Assembly (NCBI GenBank): GCA_002898555.1
Contig: BEHR01000018.1
Span: 1 to 64,000 of the forward strand
Length of the DNA: 64,000 nt
Direction of reading: 5' to 3'
From: a bacterium HR15
Lineage (GTDB): Bacteria > Armatimonadota > Fimbriimonadia > Fimbriimonadales > GBS-DC
This document shows, in pieces, positions 445-9,262 of this stretch (its first letter is position 1; the number at the start of each line of letters is the position of its first letter). The notes beneath the pieces are model-generated. The model was not told where the DNA came from, made no database searches, and saw only the letters and a list, made by a program, of their open reading frames with translations. The position numbers and the translations under genes were made by a program.

Positions 445-894
445 TTAAATCAAGATAATTTCTACATACTCTTTATTTGTAATGCCACGCCATAACCGCT
501 TGCTGTACCCCTTCCATATGCGGCGTGTGTCTAACCATAACTCGGCCCGGTACACACCACTTCGCTGCGGGAAGATAAAATACTTGGAAAGATTAAGCAC
601 ACGCCCACCCAACTCCTCAGGCGCCAAAGCAGTTAGCTCAGCATCCGTAATAGCCCCGGGACGAATACAGAGGCCGATCCCAGGAACAATATTACCCGTT
701 TGAATTTCAACAATACGCACCTTCATCGGCTGCTCACCTACATCAATACTGTTCCAAAACAGTCTCATCCGCCTTATCGGCACATAGATGATACGCGAAG
801 TCTGGTTTTCTATCATAACCCAAACGCGTATCTCTTGACCCTGCCTAACTTCTATCTTCTTAGGAAATACCCGCAGCAAGACATTTGATACCAT
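445..894 (-). CDS. 149-residue candidate immunity protein, Ig-like fold (cassette B)
   Basis: Short protein with no signal peptide or membrane segment. Its layout (KKIEVRQGQEIRVWVMIEN near the start, alternating hydrophobic strands, PQRSGVYRAELWL later) looks like an Ig/beta-sandwich domain of the kind seen in intracellular proteinase inhibitors and macroglobulin modules; this is a fold guess, not a recognised family. It begins 24 bases after the stop of the orphan module with a metzincin-like tip, behind a G-rich stretch that may be the ribosome site. The position just after a tip is that of an immunity gene in polymorphic toxin loci, and an inhibitor-like fold next to a protease-like tip is suggestive. 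Its TAA abuts orphan module A in the same frame. Confidence 0.65.
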   Translation of the reverse strand: MVSNVLLRVFPKKIEVRQGQEIRVWVMIENQTSRIIYVPIRRMRLFWNSIDVGEQPMKVRIVEIQTGNIVPGIGLCIRPGAITDAELTALAPEELGGRVLNLSKYFIFPQRSGVYRAELWLDTRRIWKGYSKRLWRGITNKEYVEIILI

Positions 895-917
895 CGTTTA
901 TACCCCCAATATCTATC

Positions 918-1684
918 TTATTCTGGGCATGGTGGGGTGCCAGGACCATACATATACCACTCGCATTGAAAGGCACGCGGGTGTCCCTCACCACAGACAT
1001 GAGCCATTTCATGAACTATAGTTCTGCCAAGGCAACCGCATCTTTGACGGTCAAAAGCACCAGGACATAACACTATCTCGTTGCCGGGGGGCGGAGCATA
1101 GCCACAATTTCTGTATCCTGGACCGCTACAGAGAGGATCCCAAGCAGGTGCGCAACGGATAACGAAGCCGTTGCGACACATCTCCTGTAAGCATTGTCTT
1201 AGTGATGTATTTCCTCCCACACGGGAACCGCAGAGATCCTGTAGATGGCGGCGGAGCTGCCTCTCTTGAGCAGGGGTGCATCCGACAAATTGCCAATTTC
1301 CCAGTTGCAGGGTTCGATAGCTCTCGTCCGGGGGGTGAGCAGGCAAGGGTAAGGGGACTTCTTTAACAGGGGGCAGTACCGGAGGTATCTCTTCACACCT
1401 TCCTCCTTCACACCCGCCATATCCCAGCGGTGGGCACGCCATCGGGGCTTGAGGACCCACCACGGGGCACACACACGGCGCAGGCAACTCGCTTTGCACC
1501 GCCAAACCGTTGCTGTCCATCGGATAGTATCCGCTCGGCTCGCCCGTAGCACCCATCATCAGCAACTCCCCGCCTGTGTGCCGATACTGCCAGTTCTGAT
1601 TGTACCCCAGCGCGTTCCCTGCAGGCAGGTAGTCCTCCACGCTTGCCCAGCTACTGCCATCTATCGCCCAGTTATATACCCGAC
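918..1684 (-). CDS. Orphan Rhs module B with metzincin-like tip
   Basis: The open frame carries the conserved pre-tip segment (SWASVEDYLPAGNALG, YPMDSNGLAVQSEL, CPPLGYGGCEGGRCEE), then a proline linker and a tip of roughly 160 residues. The tip holds HEMAHVCGEGH (982-1014), an exact HExxHxxGxxH zinc-protease motif of metzincin type, followed by a Trp/Tyr-rich end. Many cysteines suggest an extracytoplasmic protein. The open frame continues upstream to 1871, but there it overlaps the membrane gene at 1661-1969 and has no credible start codon (no in-frame ATG or GTG between about 1700 and the repeat). It is therefore probably a silent cassette activated by recombination into the full Rhs gene. 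The motif is visible; toxin function is inferred. Confidence 0.65.
1388..1684 (-). repeat. Rhs pre-tip repeat, copy B
   Basis: Near-identical to the matching parts of copies A, C and D from the CTTCACACC tip-side border to the codons for RVYNWAIDGSSWASVEDYL, which differ from RVYSRAMGGTSWSSVEDYL of copy D. The core-side end is shorter than in copies A and D and runs into the last codons of the 102-residue membrane gene. Confidence 0.85.
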
Positions 1685-1969
1685 TCCCCGCATTATACCT
1701 TGAATGAACGCCAACAAAAAAAGCAAGATGATCCAATATATCACAGCCCAAGTAAGCAACGGATAAGGGGCTTCGCGCCCAGGCTGCTGCCTTCGCAGCC
1801 TTCGCAAGTAGAGGGCGCCTCCCAGAAGCGGTACAACCCCAAAAAGCAAAAAAACTGAGAATGGTTTCCACGGTAAGAAGTCCAGGGGCGTATTCCAGAA
1901 AGAAGTCATGGCGAATAAAGTTCCCACCACTAAAACGGCAAATATTTCTTTTTTCGTGTCCCTGCTCAT
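1661..1969 (-). CDS. 102-residue three-segment membrane protein in Rhs array
   Basis: Starts at ATG 1969 (MSRDTKKE), eight bases after an AGGAG ribosome site; a longer frame to 2014 lacks this. Three hydrophobic stretches are visible (about residues 9-26, 33-52 and 72-92) with basic loops (LRRLRRQQ). The gene ends inside orphan module B, so the repeat has replaced whatever followed. It lies after the larger candidate immunity gene of cassette C and has no tip of its own upstream. It may be a second immunity gene of cassette C or a relic of a lost cassette. No family recognised. Confidence 0.6.
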   Translation of the reverse strand: MSRDTKKEIFAVLVVGTLFAMTSFWNTPLDFLPWKPFSVFLLFGVVPLLGGALYLRRLRRQQPGREAPYPLLTWAVIYWIILLFLLAFIQGIMRGVGYITGR

Positions 1970-2078
1970 TCTATCACTCCTGTTGGTATCTTCAGACTGC
2001 TGGCAGGAGACCAAGGCGAGGGAATGGCCAACTTCCCCCTGTCGCTCGGCTCACCCGTTTCGCCCAACTCCACCAATA

Positions 2079-3378: not shown

Positions 3379-4164
3379 TCATGGAAACCTCCGCTTGCAG
3401 TTCTCAATACAACGATCCTCCCAAGGAGGTAAAGCAGGGAGCCACTTGATCTTTTGACAGCACTGTATGCAGACCCCTCGTTGAAGAGAGCGGTCATATG
3501 GAAGCGCCACGATAACACAGTCATCAATAGTGGTCACACAACCATGTGGCCGACCGTTGAACCCTGGAGGACCGTGCCCTATACACCCCGGAGCATGGGG
3601 AGGAGCTGGAACAAACCGCGGATAATCAGGTGGCAGTGAGGGCGGCGGCTGCGGTTGCCAGGAGCCTATACACCATTGCATACATAGGTAGTACGAGAGA
3701 TCACCCAAAATACCCTTCCTGAATGGTGCGCATAGGTTGTGGCAGTTCTCAATCCACCCTGGTGGAACGGTTGGATACAGACAACCCCACCAAAAGCATT
3801 CCTCATCCCCTGCACACCCGCCATATCCCAGCGGCGGGCACGCCATCGGGGCTTGAGGACCCACCACGGGGCACACACACGGCGCAGGCAACTCGCTCTG
3901 AACCGCCAAACCGTTGCTGTCCATCGGATAGTACCCACTCGGCTCACCCGTTGCACCCATCATCAGCAACTCACCGCCTGTGTGCCGATACTGCCAGTTC
4001 TGATTGTACCCCAGCGCGTTGCCTGCAGGCAGGTAGTCCTCCACGCTTGACCAGCTCGTTCCACCCATCGCCCGACTGTACACCCGCATCGGTTGCCCCA
4101 GAGCTACTTGCAGTTTTTCTACAAGAACGATCAGGGCGACCGCATCAGTTGTCCGATGCTCCAC
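3379..4164 (-). CDS. Orphan Rhs module C with cysteine-rich tip
   Basis: Carries the conserved segment MRVYSRAMGGTSWSSVEDYL through CPPLGYGGC and then a tip of about 150 residues with some twenty cysteines, in clusters such as ECFWWGC, CMQWC, GVCIQCCQK and CIENCKRRF, separated by proline-rich linkers. This pattern fits a disulfide-rich secreted domain; no catalytic motif is recognised. A GTG start at 4164 lies in the end of the preceding gene (overlap of 20 bases), and an internal ATG at 4089 is the alternative. Neither has a clear ribosome site, so translation is either coupled or absent. Confidence 0.6.
   Translation of the reverse strand: MEHRTTDAVALIVLVEKLQVALGQPMRVYSRAMGGTSWSSVEDYLPAGNALGYNQNWQYRHTGGELLMMGATGEPSGYYPMDSNGLAVQSELPAPCVCPVVGPQAPMACPPLGYGGCAGDEECFWWGCLYPTVPPGWIENCHNLCAPFRKGILGDLSYYLCMQWCIGSWQPQPPPSLPPDYPRFVPAPPHAPGCIGHGPPGFNGRPHGCVTTIDDCVIVALPYDRSLQRGVCIQCCQKIKWLPALPPWEDRCIENCKRRFP
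3803..4092 (-). repeat. Rhs pre-tip repeat, copy C
   Basis: Near-identical to copy D from the CACACCCGCCATATCC border to the codons for PMRVYSRAMGG. Upstream of 4092 the sequence departs abruptly from copies A and D, marking the core-side junction of this cassette. The tip-side junction at 3803 is equally sharp. Confidence 0.85.
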
Positions 4165-5107
4165 GATTTTTCGAACAGCCTCCCAACCAACAGATTCCTT
4201 TTACTCCCCAACCTGTATCGAACTCCGCGACAACTACTCCTTGCCTAACCATGCTCCTAATACGAAAGGTTTTTATTTCAGGCAGGAAACGCCTGAAATC
4301 GAACGAAACATACTCTGTTAGAATATAGTCACCACATGGTGAAACAATTACTGGGGTTTCGTCCTTGGGTAACCATCCCGAAAGATTTATCACTGAAATA
4401 CGGTCGTGACGCAAATCATACCGCAGGATCTCATGCTGAGCCTTATCATAGACGAAAACACTTGCACCACTGGGTGTCCAACCCAACGCACGCGCTTGGA
4501 ACACTTTGCGCGCCTCTTGTCCTATAGCGGGAAGCAAATAGGTCCATCCACCACTTTCCATTAGAAGCGCTCTACCCGTAGGAGAAAAATGAATTACCTG
4601 TGGAATTGGCATATTCGGAAGCACGCGCTCTTGCGTCCAAACGATGCTATTGTTGGTGATTCTATAGCTCGCAACGAATACTTTGTCTTTGGTGCACCAA
4701 ATAGCAAACTTTTCCCGCAACGAAAGTGCGATGAGCCGTTTCCCCAAAGGAATTTCCATCCTCCAGCTTCGTGCGTGCTGAATATCGTAAAGCCTCCCCG
4801 ACTTGCCACAACCCAAGACTATGTGCGTTTTGGAGTCGGTGTTAGCACACCAAGGCTCTTGTGTGCAAGGCTGAATAAGTTTGGTCTGTTGGGAAGACCT
4901 TTTAAACGATACTTTCCATAGACCGCGTCCTGTGCTCTTCCGAATACTACTCCTTATTCCTGCTAAGGGCTGATCTGGTGGTCGCGTCTCTACGGCGAAT
5001 ATAAAGACGCCCTCAGGGGGCTGGTTCTCACGCAAACAACGCGTCTTCACCAGAACCAATGTGATCAGCAAAAACATCGCCAGAATACTCAGGAACAGCC
5101 GCCGCAT
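4145..5107 (-). CDS. Membrane-anchored 320-residue protein, candidate immunity (cassette D)
   Basis: Begins 20 bases after the Rhs stop codon. The first 20 or so residues (MRRLFLSILAMFLLITLVLV) form a signal anchor; the rest should be extracytoplasmic. Repeating blocks such as VIHFSPTGRALLMESGGWTY and PVIVSPCGDYILTEY look like blades of a WD40/TolB-type beta-propeller, which is a pattern judgement only. Position directly after the active Rhs tip and likely cotranscription make it the candidate immunity protein of that tip. No family recognised. Confidence 0.65.
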   Translation of the reverse strand: MRRLFLSILAMFLLITLVLVKTRCLRENQPPEGVFIFAVETRPPDQPLAGIRSSIRKSTGRGLWKVSFKRSSQQTKLIQPCTQEPWCANTDSKTHIVLGCGKSGRLYDIQHARSWRMEIPLGKRLIALSLREKFAIWCTKDKVFVASYRITNNSIVWTQERVLPNMPIPQVIHFSPTGRALLMESGGWTYLLPAIGQEARKVFQARALGWTPSGASVFVYDKAQHEILRYDLRHDRISVINLSGWLPKDETPVIVSPCGDYILTEYVSFDFRRFLPEIKTFRIRSMVRQGVVVAEFDTGWGVKGICWLGGCSKNRGASDN

Positions 5108-5127: not shown

Positions 5128-8100
5128 TTACTGTAAAGGATAGATTATTTTTCTCAAGTCGCTATCTGTAAACCCACTAAGTAAGCAGCTATCGAGCACA
5201 TCCACAACAAAATCATGACAATTGGCAAAGAGCATATCGTAGACATCCACCCACTCATATTGTAGATAATCTCCATAACTGCATATGCATCTCTTTTCAT
5301 GTTCTGTTACACTATATACTGCGCATTTGAGGTATGGATCATCCCTTAGATTGGATGTGGAACCAGGAGGTACCTCGAAAATCTTCCCGCACGCTGCAAT
5401 CAAGGAATGCGATACTATCCCACCCGTATCTTTTACAGGACGCGTACATATAAGTATAGAAGTTCGGGTATTCAGCCGACCACTACTTAGCATGTGATAG
5501 ACAGGCTGTGGTAAAAAGGGATCAAGAGGTGGAAAAGGCATCTGTGGCGGCGGATTCGGTAAAGCAGGAGGCATTGGCGTTTCCTCACATCTTCCTCCTT
5601 CACACCCCCCATATCCCAGCGGTGGGCACGCCATCGGGGCTTGGGGCTGCACCACGGGACAGACACACGGCGCAGGCAACTCGCTCTGCACCGCCAAACC
5701 GTTGCTGTCCATCGGATAGTACCCACTCGGCTCACCTGCAGCACCCATCATCAGCAACTCACCGCCTGTGTGCCGATACTGCCAGTTCTGATTGTACCCC
5801 AGCGCGTTCCCTGCAGGCAGGTAGTCCTCCACGCTTGACCAGCTCGTTCCCCCCATCGCCCGACTGTACACCCGCATCGGCACACCTCCACACCCTATCC
5901 GACACACATACCGATATTCCTGCTGACTGAGATAATCCCCCTTCCACACACGAATGCCATCGCCATTATACCCGTACACATACGCCACTTGCAAACTACC
6001 ATTCCCATAATCCCGCTCTATCCGCACCAAACGACCCTCCTCATCATACGAAAACACCCGATCATACGCCACCGACGGGGCATCCCAACGCGCCAAAGTG
6101 CCTTCAGGGTTCCATACAAAACTGTTCACCTCGCCCGTCCACACATCCTGCACCGACGACAACCGACCTGACACCTCGTCATAGGCATAAAAGTCCCAGT
6201 GCGTACCGTTCACCACATCGTCCCGCATCACAAACGCACGGCTCCCGTCGGGATTGTAAGCGTAGCTCCGCGAATACGCCACCTGACCTGTGCGCTGTTC
6301 GCTCTCCAGCCTCCCTGCGGGCGTGTAAGTGTAGACCGTCGTGTCCCCACTCGGACGCTCCACGCTCTGCACCACACGACCCAACAGGTCATAGGTATAC
6401 TCATACCCTATCAGCAAAGTGCCATCCGCTTTCCTGTGTTCCACTTTCCACACAAAGCCCACCTGCGACGGGTTGTCCGCACCATAGTAGGTATACTCTA
6501 CATAACTCCCGTTCGGATAGTCCTCGCGCTTCAGCCGTCCCGTCGCGTTGTCATAAGTATACACCACCGTGCCCCGATTGTCGCCCACACTCTGCAACCG
6601 TCCTAACTTGTCATAACCGTTCTCTATCGTGCGCACCACGCTGTTATCCGCTCGCAACTCTTTCTCAAAGCGTTTCCTGCCTGCCGGGTCATACTCAGCG
6701 GAGACGGCGACCACCTCGATGCCTTCCCCACTGCCACAGCAGCCGCGTTGCTCCCGCACGCGCCCCCAAGCGTCGTAGGTGTAGTCGCGCCTGCCTGCGC
6801 CATCCTCCACCCACACCCGACGGTTCTCACCATCCCAGCCCATACGCACATCCGCGCTGCGAGGATAATCAATCCCCCGCAAACGACCCCAAGTGTCATA
6901 ACTGTACAGCGTCGTCTCGCTGCTCGTCTCACCCGTCTGTACCACACGCCGAACCAGCCACCCGACGCCCCCATAGTCCATCTCGCGCCAATAACCACCA
7001 GGCACTATCACCTTCTTCAACTGACCACGACGCGCCAAGTTCGCCTCATCCGACCCGTAATACGCATACTCCGTCACCCGACCCAACGCATCCACCACCC
7101 GACGCACCTGACCATACGCCGGCTCGCCCAACTCATAATCATACACATACTGCGTCTGCGCACCCTCAGGGTCGGTGACACGCTTCACATCCCCATACGC
7201 CGTATAACTATACTCCCAAGTGTGGTTGAGCGCGTCCGTCACCTTCCACACCCGATCACTGTTCGGGTAATAGGTATAACTCGTCTGCGCCCCGTTCGGC
7301 TCCTTGCTCCAGAGCAGGTTGCCCTGTGTATCATAGTTCCATTCCCACACCAGCCCCGCAGCATCTTGACGCTTCACCACCTGATACTGCCCGTTGTACC
7401 ACAACCGCGTGGTCAAACGCACCAGCGTCGCGTCCCCACCCTGCGTCAGACGCACCACCGTCACGCCCGAAAAGCCATACTCTGTCCACACCCCTGTCGG
7501 GTCGGTCCAGCGACTGCTCCCAGTTTCGGGCGTGCCACTGCTCGTAATCCCCACAGGCTCCGCACGCCAATAACTCGCCGTCCACTGGTTGCCAGCCGCA
7601 TCACGAAACCACTTCAGCGCGTCGCTCGTCGCGCTCACATAGCCATACTGCCATTCCTGCCTTAGCCGATCCGTCCAGCGCACCACATTCCCCCGACCGT
7701 TGTAGCCAAACACCACCTCATAACCGCGCACCTGACCGTTCTCATCAGCCACCTCAGGAAAGCGCACCTTCCACAAACGCCCCTGACCATCGTACACCAG
7801 CTCCCATACACGCCCCGTGAAGTCCACTACCTGCCACAGCCGATTGTTCGTGTAAGTCAGGCTCAGCGCGCGTCCATACCGATCCGTAATCTGGCTCAAC
7901 TGCCCGTTCACATAGCTCAACACCACTGCCCGTGCGTACTTGTCCTCCACACGCTCCAGCACGCGCACCCCCTGCGCGTTGTTCTGGGAGGCGAACACCC
8001 AACGCTCTTCACTCCCACGCCGCGTCAACACATACCGCCCATCCGCCTGACGCACCAGACGGTCAAACACGCCTGTCGGCGGCGTGAAGACCCCATCCCC

Positions 8101-8640
8101 ATCGGGGTCATTATACACCCAACGCGAGCCATCCCCTTCTTGCACGGTCGCCTGCGTCTGCGGGCTATTGAGCGTGAGGCACACATGCCAACTGTGCGTC
8201 CACTTAGGGGCAATCGGAGACGGCTGGCTCGGATTGGCTTGCGAGTTGAACACGAGGCTCAACGAGACCCCGTTTGCCCACCCGACCAGCGGCAGCTGCA
8301 GGCAGAGATTGCCGTTGCCCAAATTCACCACGCCGCCATAGACGCCTGCGCTCGCGCCCCACGCAGGCGGCAGCCCAGGCGCAGGGGCAACGGGTGGGGT
8401 CTCCTGCGCACGCTGCAGGGGCAAGAGAGTTGCCAGCCAAGTTTTGAGGCGGGTCTTGAAGGGGATAGCAGGGGTGGAAGTGGCAATTAGAGTGTTGACA
8501 CTATTTACCCCCCCCGCAGAGAGCGAGTACGGGCAAGTTCCGCTGCCACCCCAAACTGCGGTGGCACCACCAACGACACGCACAGCACCGCGGCAAACGC
8601 CTTTGCCGTTCCCTTCTGCGCCAACACCTGGCGCACCCAA
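5128..8640 (-). CDS. Rhs/YD-repeat polymorphic toxin-like protein (full-length copy)
   Basis: A 1170-codon frame. From about residue 90 it has the VNLGNGNL and WTHSWHVCLTL segments typical of the N-terminal region before Rhs repeats, then more than fifteen YD-type repeats (YDAWGRV, YDLLGRVVQS, YTPAGRLESE, YNPDGSR), which in this superfamily build a hollow beta-cocoon. Residues about 884-1020 are the segment repeated in the orphan modules. The tip (about 1020-1170) has VSHSLI (His near 1078) and NCHDFVVDVLD (Cys near 1141); a His-before-Cys order with NC-x-x-F fits circularly permuted papain/NlpC-like cysteine peptidases, which is an inference. The first ~43 codons before the G run are an out-of-frame shadow; the true N-terminus is the signal peptide frame at 8505-8660. 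Confidence 0.85.
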   Translation of the reverse strand: MGAPGVGAEGNGKGVCRGAVRVVGGATAVWGGSGTCPYSLSAGGVNSVNTLIATSTPAIPFKTRLKTWLATLLPLQRAQETPPVAPAPGLPPAWGASAGVYGGVVNLGNGNLCLQLPLVGWANGVSLSLVFNSQANPSQPSPIAPKWTHSWHVCLTLNSPQTQATVQEGDGSRWVYNDPDGDGVFTPPTGVFDRLVRQADGRYVLTRRGSEERWVFASQNNAQGVRVLERVEDKYARAVVLSYVNGQLSQITDRYGRALSLTYTNNRLWQVVDFTGRVWELVYDGQGRLWKVRFPEVADENGQVRGYEVVFGYNGRGNVVRWTDRLRQEWQYGYVSATSDALKWFRDAAGNQWTASYWRAEPVGITSSGTPETGSSRWTDPTGVWTEYGFSGVTVVRLTQGGDATLVRLTTRLWYNGQYQVVKRQDAAGLVWEWNYDTQGNLLWSKEPNGAQTSYTYYPNSDRVWKVTDALNHTWEYSYTAYGDVKRVTDPEGAQTQYVYDYELGEPAYGQVRRVVDALGRVTEYAYYGSDEANLARRGQLKKVIVPGGYWREMDYGGVGWLVRRVVQTGETSSETTLYSYDTWGRLRGIDYPRSADVRMGWDGENRRVWVEDGAGRRDYTYDAWGRVREQRGCCGSGEGIEVVAVSAEYDPAGRKRFEKELRADNSVVRTIENGYDKLGRLQSVGDNRGTVVYTYDNATGRLKREDYPNGSYVEYTYYGADNPSQVGFVWKVEHRKADGTLLIGYEYTYDLLGRVVQSVERPSGDTTVYTYTPAGRLESEQRTGQVAYSRSYAYNPDGSRAFVMRDDVVNGTHWDFYAYDEVSGRLSSVQDVWTGEVNSFVWNPEGTLARWDAPSVAYDRVFSYDEEGRLVRIERDYGNGSLQVAYVYGYNGDGIRVWKGDYLSQQEYRYVCRIGCGGVPMRVYSRAMGGTSWSSVEDYLPAGNALGYNQNWQYRHTGGELLMMGAAGEPSGYYPMDSNGLAVQSELPAPCVCPVVQPQAPMACPPLGYGGCEGGRCEETPMPPALPNPPPQMPFPPLDPFLPQPVYHMLSSGRLNTRTSILICTRPVKDTGGIVSHSLIAACGKIFEVPPGSTSNLRDDPYLKCAVYSVTEHEKRCICSYGDYLQYEWVDVYDMLFANCHDFVVDVLDSCLLSGFTDSDLRKIIYPLQ
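5580..5987 (-). repeat. Rhs pre-tip repeat, copy D (in the full-length gene)
   Basis: Reference copy of the repeat, embedded in frame near the 3' end of the Rhs gene. It encodes YGYNGDG, GDYLSQQEYRYVC, SSVEDYLPAG, YPMDSNGLAVQSEL, CVCPVVQPQAPMACPPLG and the cysteine-rich border GGCEGGRCEE, after which each module has a different tip. Confidence 0.9.
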
Positions 8641-8660
8641 CGCAAACTGCCTCGTCGCAT
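8505..8660 (-). CDS. Signal peptide segment of the Rhs gene (frame-separated)
   Basis: ATG 8660 follows AAGGAGG at eight bases. The peptide has a basic start (MRRGSLRWVRQ, KGTAK), a hydrophobic core (AFAAVLCVSLVV) and a plausible signal peptidase site after GVAA: a Sec signal peptide. It ends at TAA 8505-8507, immediately after a run of eight G on the coding strand. One extra G would join it in frame to GGVNSVNTL of the Rhs body. It is thus almost certainly the true N-terminus of the Rhs protein, with the gene currently drawn out of frame. Confidence 0.75.
   Translation of the reverse strand: MRRGSLRWVRQVLAQKGTAKAFAAVLCVSLVVPPQFGVAAELARTRSLRGG
8508..8515 (-). other. Homopolymer G(8) tract at the Rhs frame switch
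   Basis: Coding-strand CTGCGGGGGGGGTAAAT. With eight G the signal peptide frame reads CGG GGG GGG TAA; with nine G (or six) it reads on into the Rhs body. Possible explanations are phase variation, transcriptional slippage or an assembly error. Confidence 0.7.
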
Positions 8661-8699
8661 CACCATCGCCTCCTTCGCCATTTCCAAAGGTACGCTGCT

Positions 8700-9114
8700 A
8701 TTGATGGCACATCCTGCAGGGGTTTGTCAAGGGGGGAACGAAAAAAGGCTTTTGAGTTCAAAAAGTGCCGTCAAGACCCTGAAGACGCTAAAAACCGTCC
8801 GCTGCCCGCGCATTTTTTTCAACTTTCCGAACAGCCCCACAGGGCAAGGACACCCTTGCCCACAGCCGCACCTGCTGCCGCCCCATCGCCCTTGAAAAGG
8901 CGCACAGACTTCAGCTCGGCACTGCGTGTGTCAGCGCCGTTGGCGCCACTCGCGCCTCAAAATGGGTGGGCAAGGCAGCGCGGTACCGCACACGCTGGTT
9001 CTTGCACCGTCTGCTTCTCACCTCCTTGCTGGTTGGGGTATTCGTCAAGCGGGTTGGGATTCCTGCTGTGGCGGGTGGCGAGTGGTGAGAGGTGAATCGG
9101 GTTTTTGGGCAGAC
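8700..9114. other. Gene-free stretch upstream of the Rhs and M16 genes
   Basis: No coding region is supported here. It holds a short hairpin GGGCAAGG/CCTTGCCC at about 8842-8861, and a degenerate GGCGGGTGGCGAGTGGTGAG stretch near 9070-9090 that resembles the one at 48600-48670. The Rhs promoter should lie near its left end, but no convincing -10/-35 pair was seen. Confidence 0.4.
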
Positions 9115-9262
9115 AAAATTTTCTTTTCCGGGGTACCCCAAAATTTTTTCTCTGGGGTACCCAAAATTTTCTTTTCCGGGGTACCCTGCTGGGTCGGAAA
9201 AGAAAATTTTGCCGTCTGGGTCAGAGAAAAAATTTTGCTGCTGGGTCGGAAAAGAAAATTTT
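9115..9262. repeat. Composite nested palindrome (A-B-A / A'-B'-A')
   Basis: Three direct units, AAAATTTTCTTTTCC+GGGGTACCC (9115-9138), AAAATTTTTTCTCT+GGGGTACCC (9140-9162) and a second A unit (9163-9186), are followed by three inverted units, GGGTCGGAAAAGAAAATTTT (9191-9210), GGGTCAGAGAAAAAATTTT (9218-9236) and again GGGTCGGAAAAGAAAATTTT (9243-9262). The whole folds as one stem of about 70 base pairs. Unit B matches the palindromes at 23470 and 24685. Confidence 0.85.

Follow-up and report, generated by a model that had tools for sequence, protein, structure and literature searches.

Does an Rhs toxin tip with a metzincin-type zinc site lie next to its own proteinase inhibitor? The question was raised by a locus in a 64 kb stretch of DNA (the window) from genome G000 (3.04 Mb, 72 contigs), for which a sequence-only reading had proposed a metzincin tip and an inhibitor-type immunity protein. 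The exact HExxHxxGxxH zinc site noted there was confirmed as HEMAHVCGEGH, encoded at 981-1013 on the minus strand. It was the sole match to this pattern on both strands of the window, at a chance expectation of 0.02; one match was reached in 2 of 100 shuffles. The features of the locus are:

445..894, minus strand: Ig-like partner of 149 aa, a predicted immunity protein that lacks a signal peptide.
921..1310, minus strand (stop codon 918-920): Cys-rich, predicted zincin-like toxin tip, 130 aa with 13 Cys.
1311..1403, minus strand: Pro-rich linker joining the Rhs-derived segment to the tip, recognized from the sequence.
1404..1703, minus strand: 3' end of an Rhs core/linker, ~300 nt, a copy of repeat D1 found by repeat search.
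1661..2014, minus strand: predicted membrane protein of 117 aa, probably encoded by the immunity gene of the cassette before it, and marking where that earlier cassette ends.
5128..8640, minus strand: full-length RHS/YD-repeat gene, with the same ~300-nt segment in its 3' end, at 5596-5895.

The locus has the parts of an Rhs polymorphic-toxin cassette: a remnant of the core 3' end, a variable tip and an adjoining immunity gene. Repeat D1 occurred in four copies in the window, with 89-96% identity to the reference copy; the full RHS gene contains one of the four. Upstream of the tip there was just ~300 nt of Rhs core/linker. A 317-aa frame opening at GTG 1871 shares sequence with the immunity gene before it (1661-2014), which is read in a different frame, so this start is not credible. 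The tip having no core of its own, and this overlap, point to a spare cassette and not a stand-alone gene. As it stands the cassette is probably not expressed, and the full RHS gene is the likely recipient of cassette tips. The gene directly after the tip encodes a 149-residue protein, as had been noted, with its ATG 23 nt downstream of the tip (frame 894-445, minus strand). A GGGGG at 903-907, 8 nt ahead of this ATG, could plausibly serve as its ribosome site.

A frame with a Sec-type signal peptide (MVMRRGSLRWVRQVLAQKGTAKAFAAVLCVSLVVPPQFGVAA...) was found at 8500-8670 on the minus strand, immediately ahead of the full Rhs ORF (start 8640). Eight consecutive G (CTGCGGGGGGGGTAAATAG) close this frame, which is not in phase with the Rhs ORF; this stretch is a phase-variable G tract or else an indel from sequencing or assembly. 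This upstream region with its signal peptide recurs at seven places in G000 (L098-L104, on contigs 4, 6, 7, 17, 18, 27 and 30). The six other copies were 72-94% identical, and in at least three places (L099, L100, L103) the region was fused to differing, often Cys-rich proteins. It has the look of an export leader used in common. At 9107-9186, upstream of the Rhs locus, there were three tandem copies of a 24-nt GGGTACCCC/AAAATTTT unit.

Many Rhs tips related to the window tip were found by profile searches of 291 Armatimonadota genomes. We aligned 24 of them, carrying 9–21 Cys per tip. A profile without either G000 tip recovered the window tip at 2e-20. The GTDB-wide tip scan gave two named loci only, JAIXQR010000007.1 (a pond MAG) and JACMJO010000525.1 (Fimbriimonadaceae bacterium ES-bin-173). 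Neither tip nor partner had a match in plasmid searches, IMG/VR scans gave none, and Pfam and NCBIfam scans of both gave nothing above cut-off. Judged by sequence, the tip is a member of a previously unnamed Cys-rich Rhs-tip family spread over the Armatimonadota. HExxH was kept in 23 of the 24 aligned tips and a Gly or Asn at +3 in 19. His or Asp stood at +6 in 16, the +6 zinc ligand not being kept in the remaining eight.

At L015 (7334-8557), an Rhs tip with an L,D-transpeptidase-like sequence (HGGRGDPTYPTLGCIR) is a possible peptidoglycan-targeting toxin. A tip at L010 (1706-3154) had a phospholipase A2-like CCFAHDDCY motif and was followed by a putative beta-propeller-like partner. Large (~320-380 aa) WD/beta-propeller-like proteins were found directly after Rhs tips in the window (4145-5107, minus strand), at L010 (3165-4154) and at L011 (1448-2578), and are possibly a recurrent immunity class in G000.

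A zincin fold of the tip, as had been suggested, was borne out by structure prediction. The AlphaFold2 model, built from three sequences, reached a pLDDT of 75.5 and a pTM of 0.73. It has a zincin-like order of a strand, two helices, two strands, the HExxH helix (94-105) and a further helix (113-121) containing CEWYM. Searched against PDB with Foldseek, the model matched deuterolysin best (1eb6, probability 1.00, E 3.8e-3), then Wss1 (5ln5, probability 0.95), PPEP-3 and selecase. The sequence profile of the tips also had 1eb6 as the first PDB match, with an E of 0.0084 from 12 rows and 3.7e-4 from 24 rows (next match 0.047). Aspzincin_M35 was the most frequent sub-threshold Pfam match of the family (5 of 24 tips, best E 8.8e-4). 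The window tip alone had a short sub-threshold similarity to the same model (PF14521, 14 bits vs a cut-off of 30). In aspzincins, the Asp ligand is positioned in a downstream GTxxY.. segment. No matching Asp ligand segment was found in the 26 residues past HExxH of the window tip. Scoring below the Pfam cut-off, and with too few residues past HExxH to hold the Asp ligand, the tip fails the M35 definition. A search of the phylum for intact M35 peptidases returned none, and its controls were likewise silent. The HExxHx5H-then-helix layout of Wss1/SprT-like peptidases is compatible with the model, with Pfam SprT-like reaching just 1e-3, in two members. None of the 24 tips matched the Tox-MPTase1-5 Pfam models at E<=1. 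Taken together, the tip is predicted to be a zincin, best described on the model as a deuterolysin/Wss1-like Rhs zincin with a +6 His.

A partner of membrane or enzymatic type would have spoken against the proposed pair; in the window partner we found no membrane segment, by eye no signal peptide, and no similarity to any enzyme. Its single-sequence AlphaFold2 model had a pLDDT of 33.7. The Ig/beta-sandwich look assigned to it earlier is backed by its apparent family membership. A profile of the two G000 partner sequences found homologues in six other Armatimonadota genomes. The non-Rhs homologues examined were not beside Rhs genes, and some had an N-terminal membrane anchor. A profile of these homologues alone found the window partner at 3.2e-17 and the contig 6 partner, described below, at 5.3e-23. 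Searched against PDB, the partner-family profile, assembled largely from non-Rhs homologues, matched residues 38-133 of the M35 endopeptidase AsaP1 (2x3a) with an E of 7.7e-7 (7 rows) and 6.4e-11 (11 rows), the next match having an E of 0.12. The matched stretch is N-terminal to the catalytic domain, and we take it to be the prodomain. Neither a profile of the three Rhs-linked partners only nor single partner sequences reached the M35 prodomain. The prodomain link is thus indirect, and the Ig-like fold is assigned by homology, since the Rhs-linked profile misses AsaP1 and the pLDDT of the partner is low.

The pairing of tip and partner was found more than once. Profile searches across G000 gave exactly two loci for the tip family and two for the partner family, and each tip adjoined a partner. 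The second pair, on contig 6, is diverged, with a tip 61% identical to that of the window and a partner 32-33% identical. Synonymous sites between the two tips were saturated (pS 0.86 vs pN 0.27), indicating that the tip is under constraint and that its association with the partner is old. In two further genomes (L061 and L033) a tip of the family is followed by an Ig-like partner, and by sequence the pairing is conserved. L061 belongs to a different Armatimonadota family; its tip was found at 5e-8 by a profile not containing it, and its 189-aa partner, with a likely Sec signal, matched the non-Rhs partner profile at 7e-6. The 5' (first) cassette of L033 pairs a tip (7e-5) with a downstream partner (9e-5) that bears a signal. 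L056 had a lipoprotein partner with two Ig-like repeats and a weak, borderline match (0.04). By eye, signal-bearing beta-sandwich-like partners were recognized in L069, L071 and L068. Other tips of the family were followed by membrane proteins or lipoproteins, which are usual partners of polymorphic toxins.

From these data we infer proteolysis by the tip, its delivery, its binding and inhibition by the partner, and the prodomain-like mode of this inhibition. Spare cassettes are known to enter the 3' end of a complete toxin gene by recombination, and the immunity gene travels with them (PMC3482391). By recombining through the 300-nt core/linker segment that both carry, the cassette would place its tip at the end of the full Rhs gene, whose product would then deliver it to rival cells. 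There the tip, as a small Cys-rich zinc metallopeptidase, would cut proteins. In the producing cell, the Ig-like partner would bind the tip and block its active site, acting as a zymogen prodomain supplied in trans. The window and contig 6 partners have no signal peptide and would therefore act in the cytoplasm; for the partners in L061, L033 and L056 export was predicted by eye. We consider it somewhat probable that a zincin toxin tip is neutralised by a prodomain-like Ig protein, as a zymogen split into toxin and immunity protein. The wider claim is more tentative: a split protease zymogen, with the catalytic domain turned into an Rhs tip and the inhibitory Ig-like prodomain into an immunity protein, possibly recurs across a phylum. 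Of the pairing first suggested for this locus, the protease tip with an inhibitor-type partner gained support from the predicted zincin tip and from the likeness of the partner family to the M35 prodomain, while the metzincin label was not supported.

The strongest competitor, which we regard as rather unlikely, keeps the zincin tip and a binding partner. It explains the likeness to the M35 prodomain by a broad bacterial Ig-like family only, with inhibition through an unrelated surface, as in an ordinary toxin-immunity pair. The partner homologues are indeed mostly stand-alone chromosomal proteins, not adjoining proteases. Because the prodomain link runs through them, the partner family may, from its sequences, be a general Ig family. 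That the Rhs-linked partners alone do not match the M35 prodomain, and that other tips of the family have unrelated partners, also fits this explanation. Against it, the N-terminal domain of AsaP1 was matched at 6e-11, nine orders of magnitude ahead of the next PDB match, and the tip independently picks an M35 deuterolysin.

A true metzincin tip (snapalysin- or astacin-like), with a TIMP- or AprI-type inhibitor, is improbable. It would account for the HExxHxxG/NxxH/D motif, present exactly in the window tip and with its +3 and +6 residues kept in many relatives, and for weak local profile matches to astacin and adamalysins (E 0.05-1.7). The +6 His spacing is also found in Wss1/WLM and YgjP peptidases, so HExxHxxGxxH alone cannot identify a metzincin. 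The Met-turn had been singled out as a check on the tip. In both G000 tips a Met lies 10-11 residues past the third ligand. That Met, in the CEWYM of the window tip, falls in the predicted C-terminal helix 113-121, and 19 of the 24 aligned tips have no Met within 45 residues past the zinc site. The defining Met-turn being missing from the family, a metzincin identity of the tips is not supported. In addition, no metzincin was among the Foldseek matches listed (50 ranks), the window tip ends 20 residues beyond the third His, and the contig 6 paralogue has an Asp in place of this His. The CxxxM spacing had suggested a snapalysin-like reading, which was dropped, as the spacing is not kept across the tip family. 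Two non-Rhs Armatimonadota proteins (L065 82-1935, plus strand; L070 1198-2988, minus strand) had metzincin-looking sites with a Met-turn-like SVM (HEMAHMFGALHVDDPTSVMRP), and are a useful contrast to the Rhs tips.

A dead or decaying spare cassette, with an unexpressed tip and a pair without present function, would fit the core reduced to a 3' remnant and the tip without credible start codon, and is very improbable given that the tip has an open frame, an intact zinc site and strong constraint relative to its paralogue, and that polymorphic toxin loci normally hold a reservoir of spare cassettes with their immunity genes (PMC3482391).

We return to the zincin tip with a prodomain-like partner in comparing the pair with known systems. 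Rhs-borne zincins are already known, and so are bacterial pairs of a zinc peptidase and an inhibitor. The former are represented by the toxin domains Tox-MPTase1-5, described as distantly related to Wss1 and entered without immunity partner in the 2012 table (Zhang et al. 2012, PMC3482391). Like them, the tips of this family are small, predicted HExxH zincin domains ending RHS proteins, in a toxin-then-immunity cassette order; unlike them, the family is Cys-rich, has a +6 His/Asp and gave no Tox-MPTase Pfam match in the 24 tips. With the M35 aspzincins, the pair shares deuterolysin 1eb6 as the best fold and profile match of the tip, and the match of the partner family to the N-terminal domain of the AsaP1 zymogen (2x3a). 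It differs in that tip and partner are two genes in reversed order, and in that the tip stays below the Pfam cut-off and lacks room for the Asp ligand past HExxH.

Among peptidase-inhibitor pairs, Listeria Mtz/Tim consists of a metzincin and a TIMP-like lipoprotein, with the zinc peptidase gene likewise followed by the inhibitor-like gene. Unlike the window pair, Mtz is a secreted metzincin with a Met-turn, phage-derived and not Rhs, and Tim gets cleaved and does not act as immunity (PMC8235301), the role proposed for the window partner. In Pseudomonas, the zinc peptidase AprA is accompanied by the small inhibitor AprI, which protects the producing cell (discussed in PMC8235301). The window pair would be alike in this combination of zinc peptidase and small inhibitor. 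AprA is a serralysin metzincin secreted by the type I route, and AprI is periplasmic and has another fold. We found no earlier report of the tip-partner pairing in the literature, subscription journals being outside our coverage. What appears new is a family of Cys-rich Rhs zincins whose Ig-like partner recurs and resembles the M35 prodomain. This family offers a partner that recurs and can be recognized from sequence, and a concrete candidate mechanism, inhibition in trans by a prodomain-like Ig protein. If true, it would represent a simple route from a secreted protease to a toxin-immunity pair, and a source of new small protein inhibitors of zinc peptidases.
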